64,000 nucleotides of DNA from Hymenobacter mucosus (GTDB taxonomy: Bacteria > Bacteroidota > Bacteroidia > Cytophagales > Hymenobacteraceae), in contig NZ_FZNS01000001.1 in the NCBI RefSeq assembly GCF_900188255.1, positions 496,001-560,000 on the forward strand. The letters run 5' to 3'. A program made the translations under genes and the position numbers. Positions within the stretch are counted from its first letter, which is position 1. Each line of letters opens with the position of its first letter. The notes beneath the pieces were generated by a model. That model saw nothing but the letters and a program-made list of their open reading frames with translations. It did not search any database and was not told the origin of the DNA. Shown in pieces: positions 24,484-32,526 of this stretch.

Positions 24484-26166
24484 ATGGAAACGTCCTGTAC
24501 TACGCGCCCAGGAGTGCTTGCAGCATTCCGACGGCGCCTACCTGCTTCCTTGCTGAGTGGGGTGACGCTTGTGATCCACATGGTGCTGGCTTCCGGCTGC
24601 AATTACTACTGGCCCCAGCAGCAAACAGCTGACCCCGCTGGGGTAGCTAGCTTGGCCTCGTCTAAGTTATTCCTAGTGCACCAAGGCAATAGCGTGTGGC
24701 AGCTTCAAAATCCGCAGTTGAGCGGCGAGGCTCTACAAGGACAAAAAGCCGACCTAACGTTGGAATTGCGCCAGTATGCTACTCCCATTATAGGTCAGGG
24801 ATTGCGCTACAAGCGTCGTGACAAGCATACGGCCCTGAATCTCGTTCATCTCTACCTTACTGATTCGCATACGTTCACGGGCTCCCAGGTTAGTATTCCG
24901 CTAGCGGACATGCAGCGCTTGGAGGTGATAGAGCGGGATACCGGCAAAACCATTTTTTCTCATGTGCTTGTTGGCGCTGGAGTTGTAGGCGGGGCCTATG
25001 TTATCCTAGGCATCATCGTACTGCTCACCAAGAGTTCTTGTCCTTTCGTGTATGCTTACAATGGGGCGAATTACCAGTTTGTGGGCGAAGCATACGGGGG
25101 TGCCATCTTCGCACCTGCTGAGCGCGACGATTACATGCCCCTACCCAACCTGCAGGCCCAGGGGCAGGACTATCAGCTCAAAATCACGAACGAACTGCGG
25201 GAGCGGCAGTATACCAACGTGGCAGAGCTGTGGTTGGTGCATCATCCGGCGGCTACGTCCGTGTTGATAGACAGCCAGGGTAATATGCACACCATTGGGC
25301 GCCCAATGGCCGCCGTGCAAGCAACTTCCGACGCTGGCACCGACTACACCACCCACCTCGCAACGCGCGACAAGATCGCGCTACTCTTCAACGACGAAAC
25401 GCCTGGCACTGCTCCCAACAGCGTGGTGCTCACCTTTCCGAACCCCACGCAGGCTAGGGCTGGCAAGTTGGTACTACACGCCCAAAACTCCTTGTGGCTG
25501 GATTACCTCTACGGCGAGTTCACAAAGAAATTCGGGTCGTACTACGGCCAGTGGGCCAGCACCCAGCACAACGTACCAGCGCGGGAGCTACGGGAGTGGT
25601 CGGAGCAACAGGGCGTTCCGTTGCGAGTATCCATAGAAACGACGCAGGGTTGGCAACTCGTCGAGCAAATCCAGACGGTAGGCCCCCTGGCGTCGCGCGA
25701 CCTAGTAGTCCCGTTCACGGTGCCGGGCACCACGTCTTCCGGCCCTATTCGCTTGAAGCTGGAAACGGGCTTCATGTTTTGGGAGGTAGACTATGCAGCC
25801 GTTGATTTCAGCGCCGATGCGCCCGTGCACATCGAGAAGCTGACGCCGCACAGCGCCCGCGATGAGCAGGGCCGTGACCAGCGCACGGCCCTCGCCACCA
25901 CCGATAGCCACTACCTCGCCCAAACCCATCCGGGCACCGAGGTGGCCCTGCGCTACCGTGCGGCCAGCACGCCTACGCCAGACCACATGGGCACTACTGC
26001 TTTCCTACATACGCGTGGCTACTACGAGCACATCCGCAACTACGAAGGCCTACCCAACCTGCCAGAGCTGTACTCTTTCCGCAAGCCAGGACGGTTTATC
26101 ACGTTTTCTAAAGACAAGTACCACCAGTCATATCAGGAGCTACACCTAGCAGCCGCTACTCACTAA
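24484..26166 (+). CDS. Unrecognised envelope lipoprotein-like protein paired with radical SAM enzyme
   Basis: A 560-residue protein not recognised as any named family. A hydrophobic stretch ends in a lipobox-like LASGC (C39) after a long basic N-terminus. A second membrane-type segment (VGAGVVGGAYVILGIIVLL) lies near residues 162-180. It is followed directly by a cysteine-containing motif, SCPFVYAYNG, and an aromatic/glycine block with EAYGGAIFAPAERDDY. The remaining 340 residues look beta-rich, with repeated LVVPFTVPG- and LKLETGFMFWEVDYAAVDF-like strands. Four bases separate its stop codon from the radical SAM gene, so the two are almost certainly co-transcribed. The protein may be the substrate, or a membrane partner, of that enzyme; this is inference. 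Confidence 0.55.
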   Translation: METSCTTRPGVLAAFRRRLPASLLSGVTLVIHMVLASGCNYYWPQQQTADPAGVASLASSKLFLVHQGNSVWQLQNPQLSGEALQGQKADLTLELRQYATPIIGQGLRYKRRDKHTALNLVHLYLTDSHTFTGSQVSIPLADMQRLEVIERDTGKTIFSHVLVGAGVVGGAYVILGIIVLLTKSSCPFVYAYNGANYQFVGEAYGGAIFAPAERDDYMPLPNLQAQGQDYQLKITNELRERQYTNVAELWLVHHPAATSVLIDSQGNMHTIGRPMAAVQATSDAGTDYTTHLATRDKIALLFNDETPGTAPNSVVLTFPNPTQARAGKLVLHAQNSLWLDYLYGEFTKKFGSYYGQWASTQHNVPARELREWSEQQGVPLRVSIETTQGWQLVEQIQTVGPLASRDLVVPFTVPGTTSSGPIRLKLETGFMFWEVDYAAVDFSADAPVHIEKLTPHSARDEQGRDQRTALATTDSHYLAQTHPGTEVALRYRAASTPTPDHMGTTAFLHTRGYYEHIRNYEGLPNLPELYSFRKPGRFITFSKDKYHQSYQELHLAAATH

Positions 26167-26170
26167 CGTT

Positions 26171-27418
26171 ATGCAAGCTACTATCCTACCCGACCTACCT
26201 TACTTAGACCATCCTGCACCGGCTACCACCAAAGCATCGGGCCCCGTAACGGTGCCTACCTTGTCGCCTACCATGGTAGCATCGGGGCTACGGCGCGATG
26301 TACTCAACCGCTGCCTAACGCTCGTTGAGACTGGCCTGACTTTACACTACTTGCGCAGCCCCAGCCGCATTCGGCAGGCTGGAGCCGAAGTGCAGGTGCT
26401 GCGGCAAGCGTACTATGGCAATTTACGGGTGCAAAAGGTGGCGCACGTAGCCGGGCGGTATTACCGCGAGTTTCAGACGCCGGGCTGGCCTTCGGTGGCC
26501 CACGCACGCTACGTAGCTACTACCCTACACCGCCTAACACCCTTCCGGCCCGACGCCCATTCCTTGCAAATGGTGTTTCTGGCTATTACCAAGAAGTGTC
26601 CACTTGCCTGCGCCCACTGCTTTGAGTGGGATGCGCTCAACCAACGCGAAAAGCTCACCCTGCCCGACTTACGCCGCATGGTAGCCGAGTTTCAGAGCCG
26701 CCACGTTACCCAAATCTTATTTAGCGGCGGAGAGCCCATGCTACGCGTGCACGATATCCTGGATGTGCTACGCACCGCCCAGCCCGGTACCGATTTTTGG
26801 GTGTTCACCTCGGGCTTTCATTTTACCCGCAAAAATGCGCAGCTACTCAAGCATGCTGGCCTAACCGGCGTATCCATCAGCCTAGACCATCACGACCCTG
26901 CTCAGCACAATGCCTTCCGGGGCTCGCCAGACGCGTACCAACATGCCATAAACGCTGCGCAGTACGCCCACGAAGCTGGGTTGGTAGTGGCCCTCACGGT
27001 GTGCGCCACCCGTGAGTTTACTACCCCCGAAAATCTTATGGCCTACGCCCGCTTAGCCAAGCAACTGGGTGTCACGTTTATACACATACTGGAGCCCCGG
27101 GCCGTAGGTCACTACGCCGGGCAGGTGGTAGACCTAGGCGCTGCTGAACTAGAACTATTGGAAGAGTTCTACCTAAAGCTTAACTATAGCAAGGACTATC
27201 TGGATTGGCCCATTGTGCACTACTACGGTTACCACCAGCGGCGCATGGGCTGCAGCGGAGCCGCCGACCGGTTCTTGTACGTGGACACCGATGGCGATAT
27301 GCACGCCTGTCCTTTCTGCCAGCAGAAAGCCGGTAGCGCCCTCACCGGGGCGCTAGACACTTCCTTAGCCGCCTTGAAGTGCAACGGCTGTAAGGCCTTC
27401 GCGCACGCTCCTATATAA
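26171..27418 (+). CDS. Radical SAM/SPASM domain protein, orphan maturase-like
   Basis: A 415-residue radical SAM enzyme. The [4Fe-4S]-SAM motif CPLACAHC supplies C143, C147 and C150, followed by the GGEP motif (FSGGEPM, 185-191) and a TIM-barrel-like region up to about 340. A C-terminal SPASM-like cluster region has C361, then CPFC (C380, C383), then CNGC (C404, C407). The first 130 residues are an N-terminal extension without recognised domain. SPASM enzymes usually modify ribosomal peptides or proteins, or act as sulfatase maturases. No sulfatase, B12 protein or obvious precursor peptide lies next to it; only the envelope protein four bases upstream and a 26-codon frame downstream are candidates. 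Confidence 0.85.
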   Translation: MQATILPDLPYLDHPAPATTKASGPVTVPTLSPTMVASGLRRDVLNRCLTLVETGLTLHYLRSPSRIRQAGAEVQVLRQAYYGNLRVQKVAHVAGRYYREFQTPGWPSVAHARYVATTLHRLTPFRPDAHSLQMVFLAITKKCPLACAHCFEWDALNQREKLTLPDLRRMVAEFQSRHVTQILFSGGEPMLRVHDILDVLRTAQPGTDFWVFTSGFHFTRKNAQLLKHAGLTGVSISLDHHDPAQHNAFRGSPDAYQHAINAAQYAHEAGLVVALTVCATREFTTPENLMAYARLAKQLGVTFIHILEPRAVGHYAGQVVDLGAAELELLEEFYLKLNYSKDYLDWPIVHYYGYHQRRMGCSGAADRFLYVDTDGDMHACPFCQQKAGSALTGALDTSLAALKCNGCKAFAHAPI

Positions 27419-27618: not shown

Positions 27619-29145
27619 TTATTTGCGCTTACGCTTGCGCGACGATTGGTACTCGTCGTCATCGTCGTCATCGCCAAAGTTTGGCATGGTGAACATCGAC
27701 GACAGCAAGTCCTTGAACTGGGCTCCAGCCGTGAGGCGGTTGCGAGAAATCAGGCTATGCTCGGCCATACCGTGCAAAGCAAACTCCATCCAGAAGTGCA
27801 TGTTGTCCTTACTTAACTCACCGGGTACGCTCTGCTTCACCAAATCCTGCAAACCAGGCACTACGTCCAGCACCTTGCGGTAGTCGTCATCGGAAGCATC
27901 GTGCAGCAGGTCGATGGTGCGCGACCCAAACCAATCCTGTACGGGTTTGTATGGATTGGGCTTGTCGCGCTGCTTTTTGGTTTTCTCGGGGTCGGGGAAG
28001 TAGCTCAGGAACTGGGTGCGCAGAGCCTTGCCCATCAGCTTCTCGGCCACAATACCCGCGCCTTCTTGCTCACCTTCGTACACTAGCTCCACCTTGCCCG
28101 TTACGGCCGGTACAGCGCCCAAGAAGTCAGCAATGCGCACGTAAGTCTGTTTTTCGCCATTGATGAGAGCTCGGCGCTCAGCAGCAGCAATAACTTGCTC
28201 GTAGGCTGAAATAGTGAGACGAGCCGACACGCCCGACTTCGCATCAACGAACTCAGAGCCGCGGGCCTCAATAGCCACTTGTTCTACCAAGTCGTGTACT
28301 ACCTCATTGGTTGTCACCAAGCCGCGCTGCTCCTCCCGGATGCGCGCCTCTTGTTTGGTGATGCGCTTCCCGATTTCAATGCTCTTAGGATAGTGCGTGA
28401 TAATCTGAGCGTCAATCCGGTCCTTCAGTGGCGTTACAATGGAACCACGGTTGGTGTAGTCTTCGGGGTTAGCCGTGAAGACGAACTGGATATCGAGGGG
28501 CAAACGCACCTTGAAACCACGAATCTGGATGTCGCCTTCCTGCAGGATGTTAAACAATGATACCTGAATACGGGCCTGCAAGTCGGGTAGCTCGTTGATT
28601 ACAAAGATGCCCCGGTGGGCTCTCGGAATCAAGCCAAAGTGAATTACGCGCTCATCTGAATACGGCAGCTTCAAGGTAGCAGCCTTAATGGGGTCAGCAT
28701 CACCAATCAAGTCGGCCACCGACACGTCGGGAGTTGCCAGCTTTTCAGTGTAGCGGTCGTCGCGGTGCAACCAAGTAATGGGAGTGTCATCACCCTGCTC
28801 GGCCACGAGGTTACGCGCAAATACCGACAGGGGCTGCATAGGGTCATCGTTCAGCTCCGAGCCAGCTACCACGGGCACGTACTCGTCTAGCAGGCTTACC
28901 AGCAAGCGGGCAATGCGCGTTTTAGCTTGTCCACGCAAGCCGAGTAGGTTAATGTGGTGACCGGCCAAAATGGCCCGCTGCAATTCTGGAATAACGGTTT
29001 CCTCGTAGCCATAAATGCCAGGAAACACATCTTCTTTGCTTTGAAGCTTCTTAATCAAATTGTCGCGCAGCTCCTGCTTCACGGAGCGAGGCTGATAGCC
29101 GGATTGCTTCAGGGCACCGAGGGTGCGGATGTCAGGTTGAGTCAT
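27619..29145 (-). CDS. MoxR/Mg-chelatase-like AAA+ ATPase
   Basis: A 508-residue AAA+ ATPase of the MoxR/ChlI type. The Walker A motif is GLRGQAKT (69-76); the Walker B strand reads GIFVINELPD (179-188), with N-E rather than the usual D-E. Then come the QVSLFNILQEGDIQIRG block and sensor 1 FVFTANPEDYTNRG. The C-terminal 200 residues are helical and end in an aspartate run and a basic RKRKRK tail. Such ATPases work with vWA-domain partners as chaperone-like remodelling pairs; the vWA gene at 30282-31388 on the same strand is the likely partner. Between them lie a plus-strand gene and its terminator, so they are not a simple operon. Confidence 0.85.
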   Translation of the reverse strand: MTQPDIRTLGALKQSGYQPRSVKQELRDNLIKKLQSKEDVFPGIYGYEETVIPELQRAILAGHHINLLGLRGQAKTRIARLLVSLLDEYVPVVAGSELNDDPMQPLSVFARNLVAEQGDDTPITWLHRDDRYTEKLATPDVSVADLIGDADPIKAATLKLPYSDERVIHFGLIPRAHRGIFVINELPDLQARIQVSLFNILQEGDIQIRGFKVRLPLDIQFVFTANPEDYTNRGSIVTPLKDRIDAQIITHYPKSIEIGKRITKQEARIREEQRGLVTTNEVVHDLVEQVAIEARGSEFVDAKSGVSARLTISAYEQVIAAAERRALINGEKQTYVRIADFLGAVPAVTGKVELVYEGEQEGAGIVAEKLMGKALRTQFLSYFPDPEKTKKQRDKPNPYKPVQDWFGSRTIDLLHDASDDDYRKVLDVVPGLQDLVKQSVPGELSKDNMHFWMEFALHGMAEHSLISRNRLTAGAQFKDLLSSMFTMPNFGDDDDDDEYQSSRKRKRK

Positions 29146-29487
29146 ACGGGGAGTGGATTACCGGCTTGCCTACGTATCCGGGCTAGTAGCAGTCTGGTTC
29201 AGGCCGCCGGATTAGTAGTATAACTAGTAAGCCGGGCGGTTGGTTCGGGCAAAATAAAGTATGCTACCGGAAAGATTAAGGTTGTTGATGCCGGGCGTGG
29301 GCAGTTTGGTATCTGTCTGCCCCACGCGGTTGATTCAATATGGCGCGTAGTTCACAACTTGCGGCCGGCTAATCTTTCCGCAAAGCGAAAAAGGCTATGA
29401 AGTAAGGAGGCTTTAAAAGTACGCTGCAAGCTTCAGCCGCTGGCAATAGTAAGCCGGCTACTGTTGTCCCTCTCATTTATTACCCGC
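29146..29487. other. Divergent intergenic region of 342 bases
   Basis: Separates the MoxR-like gene (minus) and the 2H phosphoesterase gene (plus). No promoter match, hairpin or small gene stood out. Confidence 0.4.
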
Positions 29488-30177
29488 ATGAGCCTACAAG
29501 ACCATTATGATGCAATGCGCACAACTGCCTTTTCTCATTTCATACAAGGCAAGGCGGAGCTCGACCCGTTACTTACTTCAGGGGAGGACACCCGCCGGGG
29601 CATTACGTTATTGGCTCGTCCGCCGGGGCATATCCTCGCTACCATTGAGCGCGTTTTAGCTGATTTTCAGAAGCTAGACCCTACTCAGTACTACTACCCT
29701 GCTTCTGACATCCACCTCACCATTCTGTCCATCATCTCCTGTCACAGCGGGTTCACTCTGTCGCAGGCTGACCCAACGGCCTACCAGGACTTAGTGCGCA
29801 CCGTTCTGCGTAAGGCCCGCCCGTTTACCGTTCGCTACACGGGGCTTACAGCATCGCCGGGGGGCATCATAGTCCAAGGGTTTCTGGAAGATGACAGCCT
29901 AGAAAAACTGCGTAGCAAGATTCGGATGGCCTTTCTTAGCTCTGGCTTACAACAATCCATAGACCAGCGCTACACTATCCAAACGGCGCACTCTACTGTT
30001 GTTCGCTTCATAGCGCCGCTCCCCCAGCCAGAGGGCCTTGTTACTGCCCTTCAGAACTACCGGTCCGTGCCTATTGGCTTATTTGAGGTAGACGCGCTTG
30101 AGTTGGTGTACAACGATTGGTACCAACGAGCGGCCAATACGGTACTGCTAGAACACTACTCGCTTACGCCCAACTAA
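29488..30177 (+). CDS. 2H phosphoesterase (2'-5' RNA ligase-like)
   Basis: A 229-residue protein with the two H-x-T motifs of the 2H phosphoesterase superfamily: HLTI (H76) in SDIHLTILSI and HSTV (H168) in QTAHSTVVRF, about 90 residues apart as expected. Family members act on 2'-5' or cyclic phosphodiester bonds in RNA or nucleotides. No signal peptide, so cytoplasmic. The ATG at 29488 is chosen over a TTG at 29464. It sits between a MoxR ATPase and a vWA gene on the opposite strand; a functional link is possible but not shown. Confidence 0.8.
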   Translation: MSLQDHYDAMRTTAFSHFIQGKAELDPLLTSGEDTRRGITLLARPPGHILATIERVLADFQKLDPTQYYYPASDIHLTILSIISCHSGFTLSQADPTAYQDLVRTVLRKARPFTVRYTGLTASPGGIIVQGFLEDDSLEKLRSKIRMAFLSSGLQQSIDQRYTIQTAHSTVVRFIAPLPQPEGLVTALQNYRSVPIGLFEVDALELVYNDWYQRAANTVLLEHYSLTPN

Positions 30178-30197
30178 GCAGCCTGAACGCGGGCGGG

Positions 30198-30257
30198 GCA
30201 TTATAAAAGCCGAGCTACCAAGGTAGTTATACCCTGGCGGCTCGGCTTTTATAATGC
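30198..30257. terminator. Long bidirectional terminator with nested hairpin
   Basis: Seventeen-base perfect stem gcattataaaagccgag (30198-30214) with its complement at 30241-30257, a 26-base loop that contains a smaller ctacc/ggtag hairpin. It lies between convergent genes ending at 30177 and 30282. Confidence 0.85.
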
Positions 30258-30281
30258 AGTTATCGTTTCCTACTGCCGGCG

Positions 30282-31388
30282 CTACACCGACTTGCGGCGG
30301 TTGCGCTTGTAGTCCTCGAAGATCAAGTGGCCTAGTCCTTTCAGACCGCTGTAGTAGGCTTTGCCTTGGTTTACTTCCGTAAATTCTTCCACAAACTGCT
30401 GCAAGTACGGGTCGGAGGCAATCATGAAGGTAGTGATGGGCACCTTAAGCCGGCGGGCCGCTGCCGCTAAGTTCAGCGTCTTGTTGACAACTTTGCGGTC
30501 GAGGCCAAAGCTATTTTTATAATACCCGTTGCCTTCTTTCAAGCAAGTAGGCTTACCATCCGTAATCATAAAAATCTGCTTGTTGGGCGTCTTGCGCTTG
30601 CGGAGCAGATCTAAGGCCAGTTCCAAACCAGCCACCGTATTGGTATGGTAGGGCCCTACCTGCAGGTAAGGCAGCTCTTTAACCTCAATCTGCCAAGCGT
30701 CGTTACCAAATACGATAACGTCGAGGAAGTCCTTGGGGTACTTCTGCTTCACTAGCTCCGACAGGGCCATGGCAACTTTTTTGGCCGGCGTAATGCGGTC
30801 CTCGCCGTACAGAATCATGGAGTGCGAAATGTCGATCATCAGCACCGTGCTGGTCTGCGACTTATGTTCATTTTCGCGTACTTCCAGGTCTCCCTCCGTC
30901 AGGATGAAGCTGTCGCCCTCCATGCCGTGGTTGAGCTGGGCGTTGCGAATAGACTCCGTCATCTGAATTTGGTCCAGGGAGTCGCCGAAGCGGAATTCCC
31001 GCATGTCGGTGCTCAGCTCGTCGCCCTGGCCGGTGTGGGGAGTGCGGTGATTGCCCTGGCCCGACTTCTTCAGCTTGCCAAAGATTTCTTCCAGCGCCGA
31101 GCGGCGAATGTTCTGCTCGCTTTTGGCCGTGATATTGAATGCACCCGGCTCCTGCGGGTCTTCATCGATATACCCTTTCTTCTTCAGGTCTTCAATGAAG
31201 TCGCCCATGCCGTACTCATTATCCGTAAGGCCGTGCTGCTTATCTAGCTCGTTTAGCCACGAAAGAGCCTCACTCACGTCGCCGCTGGTGATGGTGACGA
31301 GCTGCATGAATATCTTAAAAAGGGAGTCGAAGCCTTTCTCGGTCGACTCCTCGGGCGTAAAGTCCCGAAAACGAAAGCCTGCGGACAT
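30282..31388 (-). CDS. vWA domain protein, partner of MoxR-like ATPase
   Basis: A 368-residue protein with an N-terminal helical half (1-175, including a Gly/His-rich stretch GQGNHRTPHTGQG) and a von Willebrand A domain at about 180-360. The metal-ion-dependent adhesion site is complete: DISHS (186-190), a threonine near 249-251 (HTNT) and TDGKP (276-280). No membrane segment or signal peptide. Proteins of this CoxE/BatA-like type pair with MoxR ATPases. The likely partner is the ATPase at 27619-29145, downstream on the same strand but separated by a gene on the other strand and a terminator. Confidence 0.85.
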   Translation of the reverse strand: MSAGFRFRDFTPEESTEKGFDSLFKIFMQLVTITSGDVSEALSWLNELDKQHGLTDNEYGMGDFIEDLKKKGYIDEDPQEPGAFNITAKSEQNIRRSALEEIFGKLKKSGQGNHRTPHTGQGDELSTDMREFRFGDSLDQIQMTESIRNAQLNHGMEGDSFILTEGDLEVRENEHKSQTSTVLMIDISHSMILYGEDRITPAKKVAMALSELVKQKYPKDFLDVIVFGNDAWQIEVKELPYLQVGPYHTNTVAGLELALDLLRKRKTPNKQIFMITDGKPTCLKEGNGYYKNSFGLDRKVVNKTLNLAAAARRLKVPITTFMIASDPYLQQFVEEFTEVNQGKAYYSGLKGLGHLIFEDYKRNRRKSV

Positions 31389-31881: not shown

Positions 31882-32526
31882 ATGATACCCGCTTCTTTCC
31901 GCTTTCCGGCTGCAGCTACTGTTCTGCTAGCCCTGGCTGCCTGCGACACTACTCGCGACACCATCGTAACATCGTCTCCCTCCGTGGCACTACGCAGCGC
32001 CGAGTCGGGGCAGGTAGACACGGTCACCAGCTTCCGCCGCAGCTTCACCCAGGGGCCCACTCAATACCAAGTGCGCACCATTGGTGAGGGCAGCCTGCGG
32101 TTGCTTACCGTGCGCACTTTGCTAAACGGGCAGGAAATAGGTACGCTGCGCGACACCCTTGATGGAGAAGTGCAGGACGCTGCCCTGGCTTCCCTCAGCG
32201 GCCAAACTAACCCCGAGCTGTTGGTTTTTGTGCGTAGCGCCGGCAGTGGTTCCTATGGGTCGGTGTACGGGTATTGGTACGCCGAACAAGGCATGAACCG
32301 CTTGCCCGCACTGCCTGAGCTACCCGATCCGGCCGCTCAGGGGTACCAGGGCCAGGACACCTTCCGTATTGAGGGCAAGGAGCTCCTTCGCTCGTTTCCG
32401 GTGTACCGTCCAGCTGATGCCAACTGCTGCCCTTCGGGTGGACGGCGTACCGTTCGATATACCCTGCCCACCCGCGCCCGCGGGTTTCAGCAAGTACCAG
32501 CTACTAAGACTACTACGCGTTCCTGA
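31882..32526 (+). CDS. Lipoprotein, tandem paralogue A
   Basis: A 214-residue protein with a signal peptide ending in a lipobox (LALAACDTTR). Unrecognised family. It shares a layout with the next gene: CDTTR after the lipobox, an SFxRxxTQGxxxYxVxTxG segment, an asymmetric middle with a PELLVFV strand, and the block GYQGQDTFRIEGKELLRSFPVY near the C-terminus (represented here by GQDTF and RSFPV). Probably a periplasmic or outer-membrane-attached protein. The cysteine pair NCCPSGG near the end is absent in the paralogue. Confidence 0.7.
   Translation: MIPASFRFPAAATVLLALAACDTTRDTIVTSSPSVALRSAESGQVDTVTSFRRSFTQGPTQYQVRTIGEGSLRLLTVRTLLNGQEIGTLRDTLDGEVQDAALASLSGQTNPELLVFVRSAGSGSYGSVYGYWYAEQGMNRLPALPELPDPAAQGYQGQDTFRIEGKELLRSFPVYRPADANCCPSGGRRTVRYTLPTRARGFQQVPATKTTTRS

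Follow-up and report, generated by a model that had tools for sequence, protein, structure and literature searches.

A stretch of 64,000 nucleotides of Hymenobacter mucosus DNA (hereafter, the window) contains a real and conserved two-gene module that consists of a gene for a lipoprotein-like envelope protein and, directly behind it, a gene for a radical SAM/twitch-like enzyme. The lipoprotein-like open reading frame (ORF; 24484..26166, + strand) encodes 560 amino acids and the enzyme ORF (26171..27418, + strand) encodes 415. We put at about one half the probability that these proteins constitute a dedicated module of enzyme and substrate, in which the enzyme modifies the lipoprotein before its export; we infer both the role of the lipoprotein as substrate and the timing of the modification. 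The enzyme falls within a known radical SAM kind and has an unusual putative partner. A literature search, which had most subscription journals outside its reach, found no published description of the pair.

The last base of the lipoprotein stop codon is 26166 and the enzyme gene begins with an ATG at 26171, which leaves an intergenic gap of 4 bases. The first-pass annotation of this DNA had described a 560-residue protein with a lipobox and a hydrophobic segment, with a radical SAM enzyme encoded four bases downstream, and this description is borne out by the two ORFs, by an ASGC lipobox with its cysteine at C39, and by a hydrophobic segment at approximately residues 161–179. The genes are similarly close at most linked loci: they overlap or are separated by 30 bases or fewer in 20 of 24 linked loci, with a median gap of 5 bases and overlaps of up to 17. 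The gap count comprises 24 loci and the search for small ORFs described below comprises 25; L093/L195, L096, and L099 are in neither, and L197 is only in the latter. Upstream of the pair in the window lies a cyclophilin gene, and downstream lies a gene for an AAA-type ATPase on the opposite strand. Each of these genes is found near the pair in only 4 of 28 linked loci, which indicates that neither is part of the unit. This count of neighbors covers the loci in which an enzyme scoring above 200 bits is present among the gene calls, and leaves out L099 and L197, where the enzyme was not called.

A scan of 150 genomes of the family, H. mucosus included, detected a full-length lipoprotein in 21 genomes and a full-length enzyme in the same 21. 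In all 21 the enzyme gene is directly downstream of the lipoprotein gene on the same strand. Remote relatives of the lipoprotein (26 percent identity) occur in two further genomes, G076 and G128. The one exception is an Adhaeribacter draft genome (G039, the same record as L102; 78 percent complete) that contains a broken enzyme lacking approximately residues 100–271, with no lipoprotein match in the sequence around it. Fisher’s test gives p ~1e-24 for the co-occurrence when the broken enzyme is counted against it and the kinship of the genomes is ignored; the pairing is far beyond chance, though related genomes are non-independent samples. Across the phylum, an enzyme scoring above 200 bits is present in 7 of 296 genomes and the lipoprotein adjoins it in 7/7, including a genome (G331) in which the order is reversed, with a divergent enzyme upstream of a divergent lipoprotein. 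The tight coupling claimed at first therefore holds, and the genes of this subfamily are not found mostly apart.

Named genomes gave a similar picture. Among the best 80 of 569 candidates, the 12 best loci (L091–L102) are orthologues of the enzyme with 41–68 percent identity, and a full lipoprotein gene stands directly upstream in 10 of them; one of the remaining loci has the C-terminal part of a lipoprotein at a contig end and the other is the broken exception noted above. These 12 loci, of which two repeat genomes of the family scan (L093 = G134, L102 = G039, as judged by contigs of equal length whose coordinates or scores match), come from Hymenobacter, Flavisolibacter, Niastella, Ferruginibacter, Lentimicrobium, Adhaeribacter, Bacteroidetes, and Chitinophagia, and the nearest named orthologues (61–68 percent identity) are those of Hymenobacter. 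The next match in the same set is a Pirellulales enzyme with 31 percent identity (L103), and neither around it nor around the 67 loci below was a relative of the lipoprotein found (best E 2.9). Across 34 pairs, divergence of the lipoprotein follows that of the enzyme closely (r 0.96; 0 of 2000 permutations), a correlation that would also come from shared ancestry alone.

The enzyme is a member of the radical SAM superfamily. It matches PF04055 with 76.2 bits against a cut-off of 29.5, and the CX3CX2C cluster motif that had been noticed earlier (C143-x3-C147-x2-C150; 26597..26620, + strand) is invariant in 37/37 aligned homologues. PMC6231123 defines the SPASM motif by seven cysteines (CX9-15GX4C-gap-CX2CX5CX3C-gap-C) that hold two auxiliary clusters, and the twitch domain as a truncated SPASM domain with one. 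The C-terminal region of the window enzyme (27251..27391, + strand) conforms to the CX9-15GX4C pattern with C361-x13-G375-x4-C380, followed by C383 (C380-x2-C383) and C407. Among 32 enzymes linked to a lipoprotein, C361, C380, and C383 are kept in 32 and C407 in 31. The first-pass annotation had counted five SPASM-type cysteines; that count does not stand, as C404 is not conserved. Four conserved C-terminal cysteines provide only one auxiliary-cluster site, and the domain is thus to be classed, from its sequence, as twitch-like rather than SPASM. PF13186, the SPASM model, has no match in the window enzyme at 0.01 and is matched at that threshold by 8 of the 37 aligned members. An additional cysteine in the radical SAM core region, C278 (27002..27004, + strand), is kept in 32/32 linked enzymes as well as in the G331 enzyme and lies outside the known cluster motifs. 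It is speculative, but possible, that C278 acts as a hydrogen donor.

A confident predicted model of the enzyme (mean pLDDT 89, pTM 0.89) has its best match among solved structures in SkfB (Z 27.3; rmsd 2.8 over 291 residues), followed by SuiB (Z 23.7), BlsE (23.3), viperin-like enzymes (22.9 or below), and anSME (21.5). The N-terminal region is predicted to form helices at residues 39–61 and 64–81, a short hairpin, and a helix at 109–122; Pfam detects no PqqD-type (RRE) domain in the enzyme. Seventy-nine NCBIfam models match the enzyme at E values up to 1. The best gives 77.4 bits where its cut-off is 500, and not one of the best 25 of the 79 comes near its own cut-off. Membership in a characterised family, which the first pass had named as a point against its proposal, is accordingly not indicated, and none of the characterised families checked appears to claim the enzyme.

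The SkfB-type peptide maturases share with the window enzyme a radical SAM barrel and a one-cluster, twitch-like domain. In contrast to SkfB, the window enzyme has no precursor peptide that could be found and no RRE by Pfam, its putative substrate is a 560-residue protein, and identity in the structural alignment is 17 percent. The SkfB model TIGR04403 (cut-off 300) is absent among the best 25 of the 79 models that match the window enzyme. The last of these 25 scores 38.9, and the G331 relative scores 54.5 on TIGR04403. TIGR04133 (rSAM_w_lipo) is similar by name, which denotes a radical SAM enzyme whose gene neighbors that of a putative lipoprotein. The window enzyme is not a member, however, with 58.7 bits against a cut-off of 425 over residues 127–303 only. 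The partner lipoprotein of TIGR04133 is TIGR04134; the lipoproteins described here match no NCBIfam model (0/51 at 0.01). Viperins (PADLOC pVip) match with 48.4 bits over positions 2–127 of a 257-position model, which corresponds to the shared barrel and does not make the enzyme a viperin. The best precedent for the proposed mechanism is anSME, a radical SAM enzyme that acts on a large exported protein. Its substrates, the sulfatases, carry a motif of the CxPxR or SxPxR type. No such motif (C/S-x-P/A-x-R) is conserved in the adjacent protein or through 32 linked lipoproteins, in which two single occurrences lie at other places. Despite the structural match, anSME differs in having two auxiliary clusters (PMC6231123), where the window enzyme has one site.

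The lipoprotein, the probable substrate, has full-length orthologues in the 21 family genomes named above. From its N-terminus it comprises the lipobox cysteine C39 (24598..24600, + strand), a small mixed domain, a glycine-rich hydrophobic helix, an SCP motif, and beta domains. The sequence shows the signal peptide and lipobox expected of a bacterial lipoprotein. C39 is kept in 34/34 linked and 19/20 unlinked members of the alignment, and we consider the protein to be probably lipidated and located at the outer membrane. The helix (residues 154–181; 24943..25026, + strand) is apparent from hydropathy and from the predicted model, where it forms a single 28-residue helix in a part of modest confidence; it may span the membrane. 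The motif S185-C186-P187 (25036..25044, + strand) follows shortly after. Residues ~271–445 (25294..25818, + strand) form a predicted beta-sandwich, or jelly roll, that resembles carbohydrate-binding modules and the ligand-binding domains of Eph receptors (Z 9.7 to 11.8 among the 50 matches listed, mostly with 107–139 residues aligned at 3.0–3.9 Å) in a structure comparison that covered mainly residues 259–447. This match reflects a common arrangement only and says nothing of function. A Foldseek search with the whole model found nothing that matched over the full length (query TM 0.18 or below among the 50 matches listed), a sequence search of solved structures gave noise only (best E 0.27), and the genome of H. 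mucosus contains no paralogue at 0.001.

That the envelope protein was unrecognised, as the first-pass annotation stated, is correct insofar as none of 51 aligned members matches Pfam or NCBIfam at 0.01. It is no orphan, however, having many relatives, most of them without the enzyme. The sequence relationships place it in a Bacteroidota superfamily that has no Pfam or NCBIfam model. Relatives occur in 52 of 296 phylum genomes and an enzyme above 200 bits in only 7 of these 52, which ties the enzyme to this lipoprotein subfamily and indicates that the wider superfamily needs none. The superfamily includes close relatives of the same layout and others of ~515–650 amino acids, many of which have FGSCPT instead of SSCPF. 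Still other relatives are open frames of ~1150 amino acids that have in common with the lipoprotein mainly ~120 residues around SCP; these are FG-GAP/UnbV_ASPIC type proteins, and the one that was scanned has FG-GAP repeats and a weak UnbV_ASPIC match. None of the genomes that encode them has this enzyme at more than 200 bits.

We searched the lipoproteins for a site that the enzyme might modify. The SCP cysteine, which had been suggested as the target, is present in 34/34 linked and 20/20 unlinked lipoproteins and in 3/3 inspected FG-GAP type proteins. Unlinked members are those with no enzyme in the surrounding stretch, with flanks of ~7 kb for most and 1.5 kb for L030 and L031; L181 and L182 among them are from the same genome. 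The linked group does not include L093 (a duplicate of the G134 record), L096 (truncated at a contig end), or L183 (another lineage), and the lipoprotein counts do not include the FG-GAP proteins. Where the enzyme is absent, a site that it makes need not be conserved, and since SCP is conserved there, it is not supported as an enzyme-specific site. The cysteine could still be the target in linked lipoproteins, with nothing in these data pointing to it. Nineteen positions separate linked from unlinked lipoproteins, a pattern that follows the split between clades. In the only contrast available within a single clade, the G331 lipoprotein (with enzyme) and its relative in G288 (no enzyme nearby) each keep 7 of the 19; Y217 and P524 set one of the two apart, and Q242 and A458 the other. 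These positions are thus rejected as site markers and Y217 remains a guess. A CX3C motif precedes SCP in 13 of 19 unlinked members and in none of the 32 linked ones; 6 unlinked members are without it, and it is no rule.

The genes around the pair were compared across loci. Just one gene adjoins the pair directly and in a constant position across several genera; it encodes a secreted protein of ~265 amino acids (c5), the end of which resembles an outer-membrane barrel. It may form a barrel, as judged from sequence, and two tested copies gave no Pfam match at 0.1. Copies scoring at least 138 bits occur in 11 of the 150 family genomes, always directly upstream of the lipoprotein gene and all among the 21 linked genomes. 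Weaker matches, nearly all to the first 85–100 residues, are common elsewhere: at 1e-8 some match exists in 100 of 150 genomes. The window’s genome has none at that threshold. At other loci a different secreted protein (c6) is encoded within four genes of the pair (5 of 28 loci), and the one copy tested matches the outer-membrane barrel family PF13568 (27.2 against a cut-off of 27). A small lipoprotein-like gene (c7) adjoins relatives of the lipoprotein without enzyme in 6 loci. Among ORFs of 18 amino acids or more within 500 bases on either side of the pair, none is conserved through the set of 25 loci, which agrees with the original remark that no clear precursor peptide is adjacent. The largest recurrent group consists of parts of c5 (5/25 loci). 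Next come two groups of 4 from one set of loci, namely the end of the cyclophilin gene and an ORF out of frame; one group has 3 members and the rest are pairs. An adjacent precursor peptide was rejected accordingly.

Together, these findings suggest a model in which the radical SAM/twitch enzyme, which would be cytoplasmic, acts on newly made and still unfolded lipoprotein rather than on a small leader peptide. The modification would occur in the cytoplasm, the compartment that supplies SAM and reducing power, and would precede processing of the signal peptide. Close coupling of the genes would favor contact between the enzyme and its unfolded substrate. Export through the lipoprotein pathway would then bring the modified lipoprotein to the outer membrane, and in many genomes it may work there with the barrel-like partner. 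The reaction may be redox-neutral or may form crosslinks; with C278 as hydrogen donor it would be redox-neutral and resemble epimerisation. That the two best folds among solved structures, SkfB and SuiB, are peptide maturases argues for a maturase, although BlsE and the viperin-like enzymes lie within 1 Z of SuiB, and the lack of a conserved precursor ORF at the 25 loci argues against a classical peptide product. Against a maturase speak the failure of any residue to mark the enzyme-linked lipoproteins, the universal SCP cysteine, the majority of superfamily members without enzyme, and the lack of a leader or recognition domain identifiable by Pfam. More tentative, with odds that we place below even, is the fuller version in which a residue of a full-size (>500 residues) outer-membrane lipoprotein is rewritten by a twitch enzyme with a barrel partner and no leader peptide, with C278 as the possible hydrogen donor.

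The main rival explanation, which we regard as unlikely but worth weighing, is that the enzyme has a small molecule or lipid as its product or substrate, which the lipoprotein and barrel partner bind or move at the outer membrane. The nearest relatives of the enzyme outside the pair, which are more distant ones, are encoded beside a GMC oxidoreductase (G188, G406; L231, L232) or a KAS III-like gene (G169, G320; L229, L230), contexts that suggest small-molecule chemistry in the wider enzyme family. The fold matches to BlsE and viperin-like enzymes (Z ~22–23 for the latter) and the likeness of residues 271–445 of the lipoprotein to carbohydrate-binding modules are in line with such a role. In 6 of 28 loci, one of the four nearest genes belongs to a further family (c3), which by its start sequence looks like a short-chain dehydrogenase. 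However, c3 occurs at varying places and on either strand, as would a common family, and the single fixed neighbor is c5. Modification of a barrel-like protein such as c5, c6, or one of their relatives, with the lipoprotein as scaffold, is improbable: c5 is directly upstream in 11 of the 21 linked genomes and at this strength in no other of the 150, but the window’s genome lacks it, as do 10 of the 21, and none of the 21 lacks the lipoprotein. We give slightly less credence still to a peptide maturase whose small precursor is encoded elsewhere in the genome, with the lipoprotein serving export or immunity. SkfB, the best fold match, is a RiPP maturase, which favors this idea, and the absence of a conserved small ORF at the 25 loci counts against it. 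That the genes adjoin by accident, through shared descent or common regulation and with no function in common, is hardly credible, for even with the non-independence of related genomes the pair is patchy in the family yet never split among full-length copies, none of the 150 family genomes has either full-length gene alone, the order is reversed in G331, and the pair spans Hymenobacter, Flavisolibacter, Niastella, Ferruginibacter, and Lentimicrobium (among the best 80 of 569).

Protein modifications by radical SAM enzymes are known mostly for short peptides or for a few enzymes such as sulfatases. The new post-translational modification system that the first-pass annotation envisaged is plausible. 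If the enzyme does modify the lipoprotein, this dedicated lipoprotein maturase would widen the reach of radical protein chemistry to include the cell surface of the very common phylum Bacteroidota, and it would provide a first handle on a lipoprotein superfamily for which neither Pfam nor NCBIfam has a model.

Downstream of the pair, the minus strand of the window (27619-31388) encodes an AAA-type ATPase that matches Mg_chelatase/AAA_5 and a protein containing a VWA domain. The genes for these two proteins flank an ORF that lies on the opposite strand and has a sub-threshold match to 2'-5' RNA ligase. A lipoprotein-like ORF (31882-32526) matches PliI, a periplasmic lysozyme inhibitor, with a score that barely exceeds the cut-off.

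In a divergent pair from another genome (L183:5217-9430), the gene order is reversed such that the enzyme precedes the lipoprotein, which is followed by c62, a secreted protein that we infer to be a barrel. The related locus L179 contains the lipoprotein and c62; the enzyme was not found nearby. At six loci that harbor a lipoprotein relative without the enzyme (L171, L172, L174, L175, L177, and L181), a conserved small lipoprotein-like gene lies directly 3' of the relative. Its product is ~170-190 amino acids in length and contains the motif ARFPQGI or a close variant. The domain bearing the lipoprotein's SCP motif also occurs in open frames of ~1150 amino acids at L085, L087, and L089. A Pfam scan of one of these, L085, revealed FG-GAP repeats and a weak match to UnbV_ASPIC; no Pfam model covered the SCP portion.

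The radical SAM core region of the enzyme contains an invariant non-cluster cysteine, C278 (window 27002-27004). Alignment of enzyme homologues revealed that C278 is present in relatives linked to a 3-oxoacyl-ACP synthase (KAS) III-like gene, but absent from those linked to a GMC oxidoreductase. The KAS III-like gene adjoins the related radical SAM gene in two genomes that belong to the same genus (L229:7074-9242 and L230:5533-7881). The GMC-linked relatives are radical SAM/twitch genes, each heading a four-gene cluster (L231:6964-10409 and L232:6958-10440) that also encodes two unknown proteins and the GMC oxidoreductase, within which a scan of L231 identified a ferredoxin-like stretch. This four-gene cluster may constitute an undescribed small-molecule pathway.
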